DNA of 64,000 bases. Origin: Planctomycetaceae bacterium. Lineage in GTDB: Bacteria; Planctomycetota; Planctomycetia; Planctomycetales; Planctomycetaceae. Shown here piece after piece: positions 16,463-61,454 of this stretch. The stretch covers positions 1 to 64,000 of the forward strand of contig JAKFVC010000111.1 in NCBI GenBank assembly GCA_021732415.1, given 5' to 3'. The position numbers and the translations under genes were made by a program. The notes under the pieces were generated by a model that made no database searches, had not been told where the DNA came from, and saw only the letters and a program-made list of their open reading frames with translations. The stretch's first letter is position 1. The number at the start of each line of letters is the position of its first letter.

Positions 16463-16553
16463 AACGGAGGAAAATAGGCCCTGTAGGAGTCAGCCAAGTA
16501 TCTTACCAGCGCGTTGCGAGGGCGCGATAGTGTAGGTTGGGAATGACAAACCA

Positions 16554-18533: not shown

Positions 18534-18560
18534 TGCGAAGGTGAGGCTCCTCGGATGCTT

Positions 18561-18669
18561 GTAGGATGGCCGCCGCGGCCGTCTTGCATTGGATTGGACG
18601 GCCACTATCAGCCCAACGCCATGCGTCGTCGTGACCTGAAGAATACGACGGCCGAGGCGGCCATCCTAC
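18561..18669. repeat. Inverted repeat, family D (GTAGGATGGCC...GGCCATCCTAC)
   Basis: Arms 18561-18583 and 18647-18669 are 23 bp with one mismatch. The element begins GTAG and ends CTAC. It occupies the junction where the ABC permease and rho genes converge. Confidence 0.88.
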
Positions 18670-18689
18670 AGGCTACAAAAATGTTACGG

Positions 18690-18718
18690 GATCGGACGGG
18701 CCTGGAGACCCGTCCTAC
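18690..18718. repeat. Single arm of family C (GACGGGCCTGGAGACCCGTC)
   Basis: One arm of the palindrome that is complete at 54430-54579. The arm is itself imperfectly self-complementary (GACGGG...CCCGTC), so it can still form a short hairpin. It sits directly between family D and the rho terminator. Confidence 0.75.
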
Positions 18719-18735
18719 GGTGCCGCTACAAAAGA

Positions 18736-35992: not shown

Positions 35993-37831
35993 ATGGATAT
36001 CCCGATGCGCTCCTCACCATTTCAACGGTTTCTCAGTTGTGTCGTTGGCGGTCTCCTGGCCTGGGGCTCTAGCGATTCACAAACCATCGCCGCAGATACC
36101 AAGCCCAATGTCGTGCTGATCCTCGCCGATGATCTGGGCTGGGCGGACTTGGGATGCTACGGCAGTAAGTTCCATCAGACTCCGAACCTCGATCGCATGG
36201 CCGCCGAGGGTGTACGATTTACCCATGCGTACTCCGCCTGTCCGGTCTGTTCGCCGACGCGTGCGGCTGTCCTTACAGGCAAGTATCCGCAACGTTTCAA
36301 CCTGACCGACTGGCTGCCCGGACGCGGTGATTTACCGGCACAACGACTCAAGCGACCTGTCATTCGCCAGGAGCTTCCGCTGGAAGCCGTGACTCTCGCG
36401 GAGATCCTGAAAGATGCTGGGTACGTCACGGGACATATCGGCAAATGGCATCTCGGAGGCGCTGGATTTGGTCCCTTGCAACAGGGATTCCTTAGCAATA
36501 TCGCCGGCGATCACACGGGCACTCCGCTCAGCTATTTTGCTCCCTTCCAACGCAACGGCCAATTCATGCCCGGGTTGGAAAATGCTCCGGAAGGCGAGTA
36601 CCTCACCGACCGTTACGCTGCCGAGGCCGAGAAATTCCTCGAGAAGAACCACGACAAGCCATTCTTCTTATACCTGCCTCACAATGCCGTCCACACGCCG
36701 CTGAAGGCTCCTTCTGAAGCAACGGCACGCTTCGCTCCCGCGGCGGAGAAGCTGGGCGTGGGAACACAACGTAATCCAGTCTATGCAGCCATGCTGGCCA
36801 GTCTGGATGGGGCCGTCGGGCGTGTCCTCAAGAAGCTCGACGACCTGAAATTATCCGATAACACGGTGGTGATCTTCACGTCAGACAATGGCGGACTTGC
36901 CACGCTGGAAGGGATGCCGGCCGCGGCCACAATCAACTCGCCGCTACGTGAAGGAAAGGGTTATCTGTATGAGGGTGGCATCCGAGTCCCCCTGCTCGTC
37001 AAATGGCCCGGACGCATCAAGCCAGCGATCAACACGGCCGCCGTCTGCAGCATTGATCTTGTCCCCACGGTCACGGAATTATGCCTGGGGAAACCGGCCG
37101 CAGATGTTGACGGAGTCAGTCTGTCGCCCATTCTCCAACAGTCCGGAGAGATCGCCGCACGCGACTTGTACTGGCACTATCCGCATTATGCGAATCAAGG
37201 CAGCCGCCCCGGTGCCGCCGTGCGTTCGGGCAATTTCAAGCTGATCGAATTCTACGAAACGGGCCGCCGTGAATTGTTCAACGTCGCACAGGACGTGGGC
37301 GAATCGCGAAACCTGACGGCCGACCAGCCAGCCCTGGTGGAAGAGCTGGCGAAGAAACTCGACGCGTGGCGGAAGCAGGTTGATGCCCAGATGATGACGG
37401 TCAATCCCGACTATGTTCCGAACCCTCAAGCGGCCGATGGCACGATCACGCTCCCTGCGTCGCGAGCAGACGTGTTTGGGATCATGCTGCGATTTGAGCC
37501 GCTGCCGCACAAAAACACGCTCGGCTACTGGGTCCGGCCCGAAGATTGGGCCAGCTGGGAATTCCAGGTCACCAAGCCGGGCATGTTTGAAATCGAGGCT
37601 CTCCAAGGCTGTGGAACCGGCAGCGGCAACAGCGAAGTCGAGTTCGCCGTGGGAGACCAGAAAGTCGTGATGACAGTCCAGGACACGGGACATTTTCAGA
37701 ACTTTGTCCCACGCAATATTGGCGTCATCGAGATCAAAACTGCGGGCCGGCACACTCTGACCGTCAAGCCACTCAAGAAGCCGGGAGTGGCCGTGATGGA
37801 CCTGCGGCAAGTGAAGTTGTCGTTGAAATAG
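35993..37831 (+). CDS. Exported arylsulfatase-A-type sulfatase with C-terminal carbohydrate-binding-like domain
   Basis: 612 residues. ATG 35993 gives MDIPMRSSPFQRFLSCVVGGLLAW; ATG 36005 would give a cleaner signal peptide, so the exact start is uncertain. The catalytic motif CSPTR (Cys86 to Arg90) with TGKYPQRFNLTDWLPG is the formylglycine site. Metal ligands are ADDLGWADLG (Asp46, Asp47) and FTSDNGG. HIGKWHLGG is the second signature. Residues about 480-612 (YWVRPEDWASWEFQVTKPG..., GDQKVVMTVQDTGH) form a beta-sandwich that resembles a carbohydrate-binding module. This fits desulfation of sulfated polysaccharide outside the cytoplasm, a common planctomycete trait. A formylglycine-generating enzyme is not in the window. 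Confidence 0.92.
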   Translation: MDIPMRSSPFQRFLSCVVGGLLAWGSSDSQTIAADTKPNVVLILADDLGWADLGCYGSKFHQTPNLDRMAAEGVRFTHAYSACPVCSPTRAAVLTGKYPQRFNLTDWLPGRGDLPAQRLKRPVIRQELPLEAVTLAEILKDAGYVTGHIGKWHLGGAGFGPLQQGFLSNIAGDHTGTPLSYFAPFQRNGQFMPGLENAPEGEYLTDRYAAEAEKFLEKNHDKPFFLYLPHNAVHTPLKAPSEATARFAPAAEKLGVGTQRNPVYAAMLASLDGAVGRVLKKLDDLKLSDNTVVIFTSDNGGLATLEGMPAAATINSPLREGKGYLYEGGIRVPLLVKWPGRIKPAINTAAVCSIDLVPTVTELCLGKPAADVDGVSLSPILQQSGEIAARDLYWHYPHYANQGSRPGAAVRSGNFKLIEFYETGRRELFNVAQDVGESRNLTADQPALVEELAKKLDAWRKQVDAQMMTVNPDYVPNPQAADGTITLPASRADVFGIMLRFEPLPHKNTLGYWVRPEDWASWEFQVTKPGMFEIEALQGCGTGSGNSEVEFAVGDQKVVMTVQDTGHFQNFVPRNIGVIEIKTAGRHTLTVKPLKKPGVAVMDLRQVKLSLK

Positions 37832-37835
37832 CGCG

Positions 37836-38098
37836 TATCGTGGGACGGGTTGTCGTGGGATGGGACTCCAGTCCCGTCTGAGGCCCGTAACGACCTGCCT
37901 AACATAGGGAAACGCCTCGCGAACTTCGCGTAGCGCACGGCGTCCTTTGTCCAAAGAGTCACGAGTTTCTCGGAGCGCTGATAGTGATGGAAACCTGGCG
38001 CTCCGCGAAGCTCGCGAGGGATTGATTCTATATCAAGTCAAATGTTACGGGCTCAGACGGGACTGGAGTCCCATCCCACGACAACCTGTCCCACGATA
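37836..38098. repeat. Long nested inverted repeat, family C copy (47-bp outer arms)
   Basis: Outer arms 37836-37882 and 38052-38098 are 47 bp with one mismatch, and the pairing runs on through CCCGTAAC/GTTACGGG with one bulged base. A second, inner pair near 37911-37932 and 38001-38030 (CCTCGCGAACTTCGCGTAGC and its complement) adds about 22 bp with two mismatches. The outer arms contain repeated words (GTGGGACGGGT, GTGGGATGGGA). The whole 263-base element fills the gap between the sulfatase and thioredoxin-like genes, which converge, and it ends three bases from the latter's stop codon. Confidence 0.92.
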
Positions 38099-38100
38099 CA

Positions 38101-38661
38101 TCAATCCCCGTGCAGCTTCCGTAACCGGCCGCTGGTCCTCAAGATGAGCTGAATCCGTTCGAACTCATTGAGCCAATCTTGCACGACCGCCGCCAGGACA
38201 TCCGCGGCTGGCGGGGCGATGCCAGTCGGACATGCGGCACCCTGCAATTCACCCGCCACTTGACGATAGCGTGACAGCGTGCGGTCTCCATAGCGTCCGC
38301 ACGATTGACCGTCTTCACTGAGGAACACCAGTGAAGGGACTCGCGGAGCCCCGCAGACTGCCAATTCCTGGGCCAGTTCGGGATGGGCATCGCGGTCGAA
38401 GAATCGCAATTGAATGTGGGGCGTCGCAGCGGCAAAGTGAGCAAAGATCGGACACTGATTGACGCAGTCACCGCACCAAGCCCCCGCCACGCACAACACC
38501 TTCATGTCGCGTTTGAAACTCGCCAACAGTTCGGTCTGCGACGCGGTCAAATGGACCTCATCAAAGACGCCCTTCCAACGCCGCTGCTGTTCCTCGTTGC
38601 CATACATGCTGAGAAACTCGGCATAGGTTGAACCTTCTTCGAATTTGGCGGAAAAGTCCAT
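38101..38661 (-). CDS. Thioredoxin-family protein with CGDC active site
   Basis: 186 residues, no signal peptide. VLCVAGAWCGDCVNQCPIF places a CxxC at Cys63/Cys66, matching cytosolic thioredoxin-like proteins of the Thioredoxin_9 (TrxA-like, YbbN-neighbour) type. APRVPSLVFLSEDG contains the cis-Pro. A further Cys70 follows within one helix. A GGAG site is 8 bases before the start at 38661. The C-terminal ~50 residues are helical and unrecognised. The usual role is reduction of protein disulfides or transfer of electrons. Position gives no pathway hint. Confidence 0.85.
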   Translation of the reverse strand: MDFSAKFEEGSTYAEFLSMYGNEEQQRRWKGVFDEVHLTASQTELLASFKRDMKVLCVAGAWCGDCVNQCPIFAHFAAATPHIQLRFFDRDAHPELAQELAVCGAPRVPSLVFLSEDGQSCGRYGDRTLSRYRQVAGELQGAACPTGIAPPAADVLAAVVQDWLNEFERIQLILRTSGRLRKLHGD

Positions 38662-40093: not shown

Positions 40094-40184
40094 ATGGGAC
40101 TGATGGGACACATGGGACTTATGGGACCGATGGGATCAATGCAGTCATAAGTCCCATCCGTCCCATAAGTCCTATAAGTCCCAT
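40094..40184. repeat. Inverted repeat, family J (TGGGAC-rich quasi-tandem words)
   Basis: The left part (40094-40134) repeats an ATGGGAC-type word about five times at 9-10 base spacing. The right part (40146-40184) repeats the complement (GTCCCAT) about four times, so the two can pair in more than one register. It lies between convergent genes (WecA-type transferase and ABC ATPase). Related copies: 57133-57205 and one arm at 27979-28006. Confidence 0.85.
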
Positions 40185-40225
40185 CAATTGAACGTCGATC
40201 GTCAGTGTACGGTCCGCGCGTCCCA

Positions 40226-54208: not shown

Positions 54209-54429
54209 AGGTGGATGTCTCCGTCTGGGGTGGGAGTGACGCTTACAAGGCGGCTTCGTAAGGTGGGACCGACAACAGGGTCGGCCTAGGATTGTATACA
54301 ACCTGATTCTGATTGCGATGCAAATTCAAGAATCTGGATTCGTTTATTCTTCTGAGCTTAACACAGATCAATCTTCGCTTAAATGGTATTCCGGGCTTCG
54401 TCGGCAAATTTGAAGGAATCGAAAGCGTC

Positions 54430-54579
54430 CGTGGGACGGGTCTCCAGGCCCGTCAGTCCCTCAATTGTGCCTCGTTGGAACAGCGACATCATCCAGTGCG
54501 GGTGATTTGGACAACGCGAAGCGTGTCCGTATTTAATCGCGCTGCAGAGTGACGGACGGGCCTGGAGACCCGTCCCACG
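54430..54579. repeat. Inverted repeat, family C (GTGGGACGGGTCTCCAGGCC)
   Basis: Perfect 25-bp arms 54430-54454 and 54555-54579, loop 100 bases. It occupies the gap between the DUF1549/DUF1553 gene and the PPC gene, both minus strand. Nothing else is in the 380-base gap. Relatives: a lone arm at 18690-18718, another at 43442-43468, and the longer element at 37836-38098. Confidence 0.93.
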
Positions 54580-54588
54580 ATACCCCAA

Positions 54589-56889: not shown

Positions 56890-57132
56890 CAGTCGTCTCC
56901 TGAATCCTGTGCTCGGTCTCAACACCGGTGCTGGACCGTGAACGCACAAACGAACTTTTATATTCCCGCCATAATAAGCCACAGTTCCGGCGCCGGTCAA
57001 AGGCAAAGCCCCGTCACAGCCGGTCGAGGCCGCAAAAACCCCCTACAACCCGCACGACAGGACTGACCAGAAAAAGGGACGTACAGGAAAGGGCACTTTG
57101 AACGTAAGTGCAACCTCGATAAGCCTTTTGCA

Positions 57133-57205
57133 ATTGATCCCATAAGTCCCATTGGTCCCATCCGTCCCATAAATCCCATGGAAACTCATGGACCAATGGG
57201 ACTTG
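57133..57205. repeat. Inverted repeat, family J copy 2
   Basis: Left part 57133-57150 (AAGTCCCATTGGTCCCAT) pairs with about 57188-57205 over 17-18 bp with one mismatch. Between them the CCCAT word recurs several times. It is in the divergent gap (56890-57502) upstream of the SirB1-like gene. A small GCATTC hairpin lies near 57270-57330. No gene supported in this gap. Confidence 0.75.
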
Positions 57206-61248: not shown

Positions 61249-61454
61249 AGGCGAGCCGGGCGGCGTCAGCCCCCGGATTCTTCTTTGACGCAGTAATTTC
61301 AACGGAATTCAATCGTTCTGAAACTCTGATAGACAGTAACTTCTGCCTTTCTTCGTGTCCTTTGTGACCTTCTGTTCAAAACAATATTGGAACAGAAGGT
61401 CACAAAGGACACGAAGGACGAAGAATCCGGGGGCTTACGCCGCCCGGCTCGCCT
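61249..61454. repeat. Composite nested inverted repeat: family E outside, family F-like inside
   Basis: Outer arms 61249-61282 and 61421-61454, 34 bp with one mismatch (family E). Inside them a second, perfect 27-bp pair lies at 61351-61377 and 61390-61416 (CTTCGTGTCCTTTGTGACCT...), of the same wording as family F. The element is in the divergent gap between argC and the FAH-family gene. Nothing else in the gap (61067-61605) is supported as a gene. Confidence 0.92.

Follow-up and report, generated by a model that had tools for sequence, protein, structure and literature searches.

REPINs were described in Pseudomonas fluorescens as inverted doublets of REP words that form hairpins in intergenic regions, are associated with specific RAYT genes and show paired changes on both sides of the hairpin (Bertels and Rainey 2011, PMC3116915). 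The GTAG-tagged REPs and REPtrons are tagged palindromes that lie downstream of genes and, at convergent junctions, near both stop codons (Di Nocera et al. 2013, PMC3733652); such REPs have been reported in Planctomycetes, and REP dimers within palindromes are known from Anabaena variabilis and Halothiobacillus neapolitanus (PMC3733652). GTGG and GTAG are a recognised REP foot (PMC6006769), and both in the TnpA-REP subclasses carrying this GT[A/G]G foot (PMC6006769) and in the E. coli TnpA-REP/REP system (PMC8266576) a HuH/Y1 protein is found beside tagged REP words. In the TIRtrons, or TIRYT, a tyrosine transposase gene lies between inverted repeats (PMC3733652). Published already, then, are REPINs, RAYTs, tagged REPs of Planctomycetes, REP dimers in palindromes and REP-targeting insertion sequences (PMC3116915, PMC3733652, PMC6006769, PMC8266576, PMC1525189), while our literature search found no paper on nested REPINs. 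The family described here, from a Planctomycetaceae bacterium, resembles each of these systems in the features just listed. However, unlike the P. fluorescens REPINs (PMC3116915), its doublets measure 107-481 bp, have in their type 2 a conserved inner arm pair, and in many cases enclose other hairpin families. Its proteins are longer than those of the TnpA-REP systems (about 230 aa aligned) and form two sister pairs with their words in one genome (compare PMC6006769, PMC8266576), and the repeats around its transposase genes are tagged REP words rather than the unrelated inverted repeats of TIRtrons (PMC3733652). Furthermore, the palindromes around the published REP dimers were not demonstrated to be another REPIN (PMC3733652), whereas in the present genome the ends that surround a doublet correspond to a further REPIN type, which has a RAYT of its own.

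The window, a stretch of 64,000 nucleotides from contig JAKFVC010000111.1 of this bacterium, holds a long hairpin between two convergent genes. We consider it probable, at roughly 0.78, that this hairpin is a type-2 REPIN, namely an inverted doublet of GT[A/G]G-tagged REP words with inner arms, which was moved by a RAYT and lies inside the remnant ends of an older doublet. The hairpin would be a non-autonomous mobile doublet of two inverted, tagged REP words. The RAYT, a HuH/Y1 single-strand transposase, would recognise tagged REP hairpins in single-stranded form and copy or move the doublet without target duplication. The type-2 copy would have gone into an older doublet that lay between the two genes before it, or taken the place of its central part, and the outermost 18-bp ends of this older doublet would survive around the newcomer. 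Here we infer both the passage through single-stranded DNA and the precise succession of events between the two genes.

The hairpin has 51-nt arms (37835-37885 and 38049-38099) that are 96% complementary and spaced 163 nt apart, and a bulged segment separates them from inner arms at 37913-37936 and 37998-38019. Its RNA minimum free energy of -181.5 kcal/mol compares with a mean of -94.0 for shuffled sequences (z -17.9), folding as DNA gives a z of -16.7, and no shuffle folded as well. The nested-looking structure proposed by the sequence-only reading is real in its outer and inner arms, and the 47-bp outer arms claimed there, also real, lengthen to 51 bp if two mismatches are allowed. The sulfatase gene (35993-37831, plus strand; PF00884, 213 bits) ends toward the hairpin with its stop codon at 37829-37831, and the convergent thioredoxin-like gene (Thioredoxin_9, 38101-38661, minus strand; PF14595, 80.8 bits) ends toward it from the other side with its stop codon at 38101-38103. 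Between the measured arms and these codons there are only 3 bases at the left end and 1 at the right, so that the hairpin fills the junction, just as that reading had it. Rfam gave no family match in the window at gathering score.

Within the hairpin, the left outer word GTATCGTGGGACGGGTTG (37835-37852, plus strand) lies outside a 229-bp core and is putatively a remnant end of the older doublet, its first 16 nt matching the left end of a type-1 doublet at the same junction in the sister species G003. It runs directly into TCGTGGGATGGG, which starts at 37853 and begins the left outer REP word of the type-2 REPIN (37853-37891, plus strand), a word with a GTGG tag, a GACGGG/CCCGTC-like stem and a TGAGGCCCGTAAC extension, as delimited by an alignment of 20 copies and by its genome matches. 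The left inner arm, or I word (37913-37936, plus strand), and its inverted counterpart (37998-38019, minus strand) were placed by the copy alignment and by genome matches of the inner word; between them lies a variable, strandless loop (37937-37997), in which other copies enclose another hairpin. The right side mirrors the left, with the inverted outer REP word of the type-2 REPIN at 38044-38081 (minus strand; copy alignment and genome word matches) and the word CAACCTGTCCCACGATAC at 38082-38099 (minus strand; copy alignment and comparison with the G003 junction), the putative right remnant of the older doublet. The two versions of a word in tandem in each arm, which had been noticed from the letters, are thus present.

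The 229-bp core (37853-38081) is one member of a family with many copies in the same genome. Of the other genomes searched, 2 of the 3 congeneric ones have relatives and none of the 55 from beyond the genus does. An end-to-end alignment of 20 full copies (14 of this genome, 6 of G003) shows a shared architecture of an outer word TCGTGGGAYGGGTCTCCAGGCCCGTCTGAGCCCGTAAC, an inner word CCCTCGCGARCTTCGCGCAGCGCACG, a variable loop, and then both words inverted; about 41 copies in the surveyed sequence have this identical O-I-loop-I'-O' order, with sampled copies partly picked by similarity to the window. The 24-nt outer REP-like word GTGG-GAYGGGNCTCCAGNCCCGTC, which contains the palindrome GACGGG-NCTCCAGN-CCCGTC, has 607 matches in the genome at up to 2 mismatches and the inner word 155 at up to 3, with 0 for the control in each case. 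In the surveyed stretches, 180 outer-word matches resolve into 85 inverted pairs with their tags outward plus 10 unpaired words, and 168 of 170 arms carry a GTGG or GTAG tag. The genome has about 300 doublets of this kind. All 82 inner-arm matches lie within 200 nt of an outer word. Since the inner word is always near an outer word and the order is shared, outer and inner arms form one unit, and the division of the hairpin into a 47-bp and a 22-bp element, one nested in the other, was rejected by the very test that the sequence-only reading had set for it. A search for partial forms, which that reading had suggested, gave a one-sided answer in that the inner word never occurs apart in the surveyed sequence and the outer word does occur without an inner arm.

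Indeed, the doublets come in two sister types. Type 1 ends in ...CCCGTCCGTCC and has no inner word; type 2 ends in ...CCCGTCTGAGCCCGTAAC and has the conserved inner arm. The window core is type 2, and the same window holds a short type-1-like doublet without an inner arm at 54429-54580, about 8 bp from a stop codon. A few hybrids (L249:18926-19186 and L091:4935-5160) join a type-1 left arm to a type-2 right arm, and the site of the former is occupied by a pure type-2 doublet in G003. An arm of a type-2 copy matches its partner arm better than the arms of other copies (0 of 2000 shuffles); no such excess was seen for type-1 arms, because they hardly vary.

Each type also flanks its own RAYT gene. 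RAYT-1 (L142 = L078, G000:C40), one of 13 Y1_Tnp matches in the genome, sits between type-1 words, and RAYT-2 (L147, G000:C9), 65% identical to it, sits between type-2 words with part of the inner arm kept on its 3' side. The remaining 12 Y1 matches showed neither word in their immediate flanks, and several carry their own palindromes, such as GTAGCCCGACTCTCTGAGTCGGG at L077 and GTAGGATGGCCGCCCCGGCCGTC at L075. Tagged palindromes of the GTAGCCCGACTCTCTGAGTCGGG kind, the words flanking the RAYT-like gene at L077, also occur in the window at 16551, 26736, 30536 and 58373. Six of six aligned RAYT-like proteins contain the NHVH motif and five of six QYIGRN; all six match the NCBIfam REP_Tyr_transpos profile at scores below its curated cut-off, with RAYT-1 reaching 59.9 bits (E 2.4e-16) against the 80-bit cut-off of NF047646 and 21.3 bits in Pfam, narrowly under the 23-bit cut-off. 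A sequence search of the PDB with RAYT-1 gave no useful match, and no close RAYT homolog was found in the 87% complete genome of G003, which has the elements. Because the two types each flank their own RAYT gene, we read this as a REPIN/RAYT system in a Planctomycetaceae bacterium; the flanked RAYTs, the HuH and tyrosine motifs, the profile matches and the recognised GT[A/G]G foot are why we file the element as a REPIN of that system. The doublets would then be moved by these RAYTs.

Orthologous sites in G003, searched with the flanks of 14 elements, suggest that the doublets are mobile as a unit. Four sites are empty there, with 11-39 nt in place of about 250-380, and none of the four shows a target duplication, as expected for HuH/Y1 single-strand transposition. 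At seven sites (the window junction, L094, L111, L245:3308, L245:8324, L249:16395 and L249:18926) another hairpin occupies the same place, and L249:3255, L249:8528, L245:5455 and, by position, L090 are conserved; L105:3108, a decayed half copy in G003, was left out of these classes together with L114 and L106:4698, and the comparison as a whole leans mostly on this one sister species. The long, near-perfect inverted repeats and many copies of a 229-bp unit might also bring to mind a MITE with terminal inverted repeats moved by a DDE transposase. We regard that explanation as very improbable and rejected it, given the lack of target-site duplication at the four empty sites and the RAYT genes flanked by the same words. 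An insertion that is MITE-like looks different: the G003 copy of L245:5455-5717 (L250, G003:C917) carries in its right outer word about 190 bp with inverted ends TTGGGATTACCCTACTTT... and a flanking direct repeat CCAAGAGACC.

The placement of the elements raises another explanation, that the hairpin serves mainly at 3' ends, as a two-way transcription terminator or a stabiliser of RNA that selection has maintained where genes converge. In about 0.8 Mb of surveyed stretches, with genes called by a simple codon-pair method, facing stop codons lie within 25 nt in 78 of 93 cases, of the 41 elements in gaps between same-direction genes 36 are no more than 25 nt from the upstream stop, where 12.4 were expected, and convergent gaps are mildly enriched (26/83 vs 61/332, p 0.015). 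However, ordinary REPs have the same position bias (PMC3733652), and the sites are often empty in G003. Moreover, a T-run follows the element at 3 of 170 ends compared with 5 of 170 in the control, and no terminator-like site was found; a canonical intrinsic terminator was rejected on these grounds, the stem having no U-tract. A primarily functional role therefore seems improbable to us. In our reading the element is a mobile repeat that the host tolerates, one that may affect RNA ends as a by-product but is no dedicated terminator.

The copy at this junction has a tandem word at each end. In G003 the same junction reads GCGTATCGTGGGACGGGTCTCCAGGCCCGTCCGTCCC...GGGACGGACAGGCCTGGAGACCCATCCCACGATGCGTCAATC, a type-1 doublet with another hairpin enclosed. 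The outermost ends GCGTATCGTGGGACGGGT...ACCCATCCCACGATGCGTCAATC are common to both junctions and the interiors differ, and since G003 has these same ends around a type-1 interior, the ends would be older than the type-2 core. The outermost 18-bp words thus look like remnants of an older element, whose type is read from G003 alone. In the simplest history, a type-1 doublet in the ancestor collapsed or was cut through its middle, and a type-2 doublet now lies between the surviving 18-bp ends; because the remnants are symmetric, the insertion target may have been a short palindrome left by such a collapse. Since no usable outgroup is at hand (the G002 hairpin is unrelated and G001 is not syntenic), the polarity of this change is also something we infer. 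The orthologous sulfatase/thioredoxin-like junction of G002 (L048) holds a hairpin of an unrelated family, GTGCCACTGCTTTGCCGCTG....

The main rival to insertion into an older element is a local duplication, in which the end word was doubled on one arm and copied to the other by template switching in the hairpin. The two 18-bp words are almost perfectly symmetric, the TTG/CAA joint included, other copies (L080, L091) have one-sided extra words, and type-2 arms are matched within copies, all of which would fit such a copying step. But the G003 junction, with one word per arm, a type-1 interior and the same outermost flanks as the window, speaks against it, and we judge duplication rather unlikely. 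On the preferred reading, insertion into an older doublet, the first suspicion that one element had inserted into another or duplicated within itself was misplaced at the 47/22-bp split; nesting seems real at the 18-bp boundary marked by the tandem word. L111 is a second remnant of this kind, and additional tag words are found immediately beyond the ends of 9 of 85 elements compared with 1 of 85 displaced controls (p 0.018).

Layering is also seen in the interiors of the doublets. By a strict inverted-repeat test, 16 of 43 type-1 doublets enclose a hairpin compared with 7 of 172 control segments (Fisher p 4e-8), as do 17 of 40 type-2 loops; a count based on RNA folding was dropped, as 65% of random control segments also passed it. 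The type-1 interior hairpins fall into seven clusters, and every one used as a query also occurs at least once elsewhere than in these doublets. The same GTGCCACTGGC hairpin sits within about 15 type-2 copies, whose spacers align, so that this composite was probably amplified as one unit. Families are stacked inside one another to an unusual degree in this genome. Further hairpins lie in the window itself. At 61249-61454, outer arms GGCGAGCCGGGCGGCG... surround a perfect CTTCGTGTCCTTTGTGACCTTCTGTT hairpin that recurs inside type-1 doublets. At 18557-18720, a GTAGGATGGCCGCC...GGCGGCCATCCTAC doublet, its words resembling those around the RAYT gene at L075/L149, directly adjoins a solitary right arm of type 2 (18680-18719); here one doublet may have inserted into another. 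Hairpins are also formed by nine-base tandem words (ATGGGACTT / AAGTCCCAT) at 40094-40186 and 57123-57188, and this word family is also found inside the type-1 doublet L116:13460.

A tentative extension, which we hold to be possible but doubtful, is that RAYT doublets of this genus have a preference for existing hairpins, entering them or overwriting their middle, and that enclosed foreign hairpins are then amplified as layered composites, the sites acting as slots with exchangeable content. The roughly 15 aligned GTGCCACTGGC composites and the seven swapped orthologous sites would support this reading. What weighs against a preference is that no obvious palindrome is seen at most of the four empty sites, and that hairpins are so numerous in each genome that sites might often be shared by chance.

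Compared with the published systems, three things seem to be new: a conserved pair of inner arms, two sister RAYT/REPIN pairs coexisting in one genome, and the degree to which nesting is layered and sites are swapped. The mechanism by which REPINs spread is unsolved. With two RAYT/REPIN pairs, about 300 doublets, empty and swapped sites, and layered composites, this genome offers natural before-and-after pairs that are useful for the study of insertion, cargo capture and RAYT-REP specificity.
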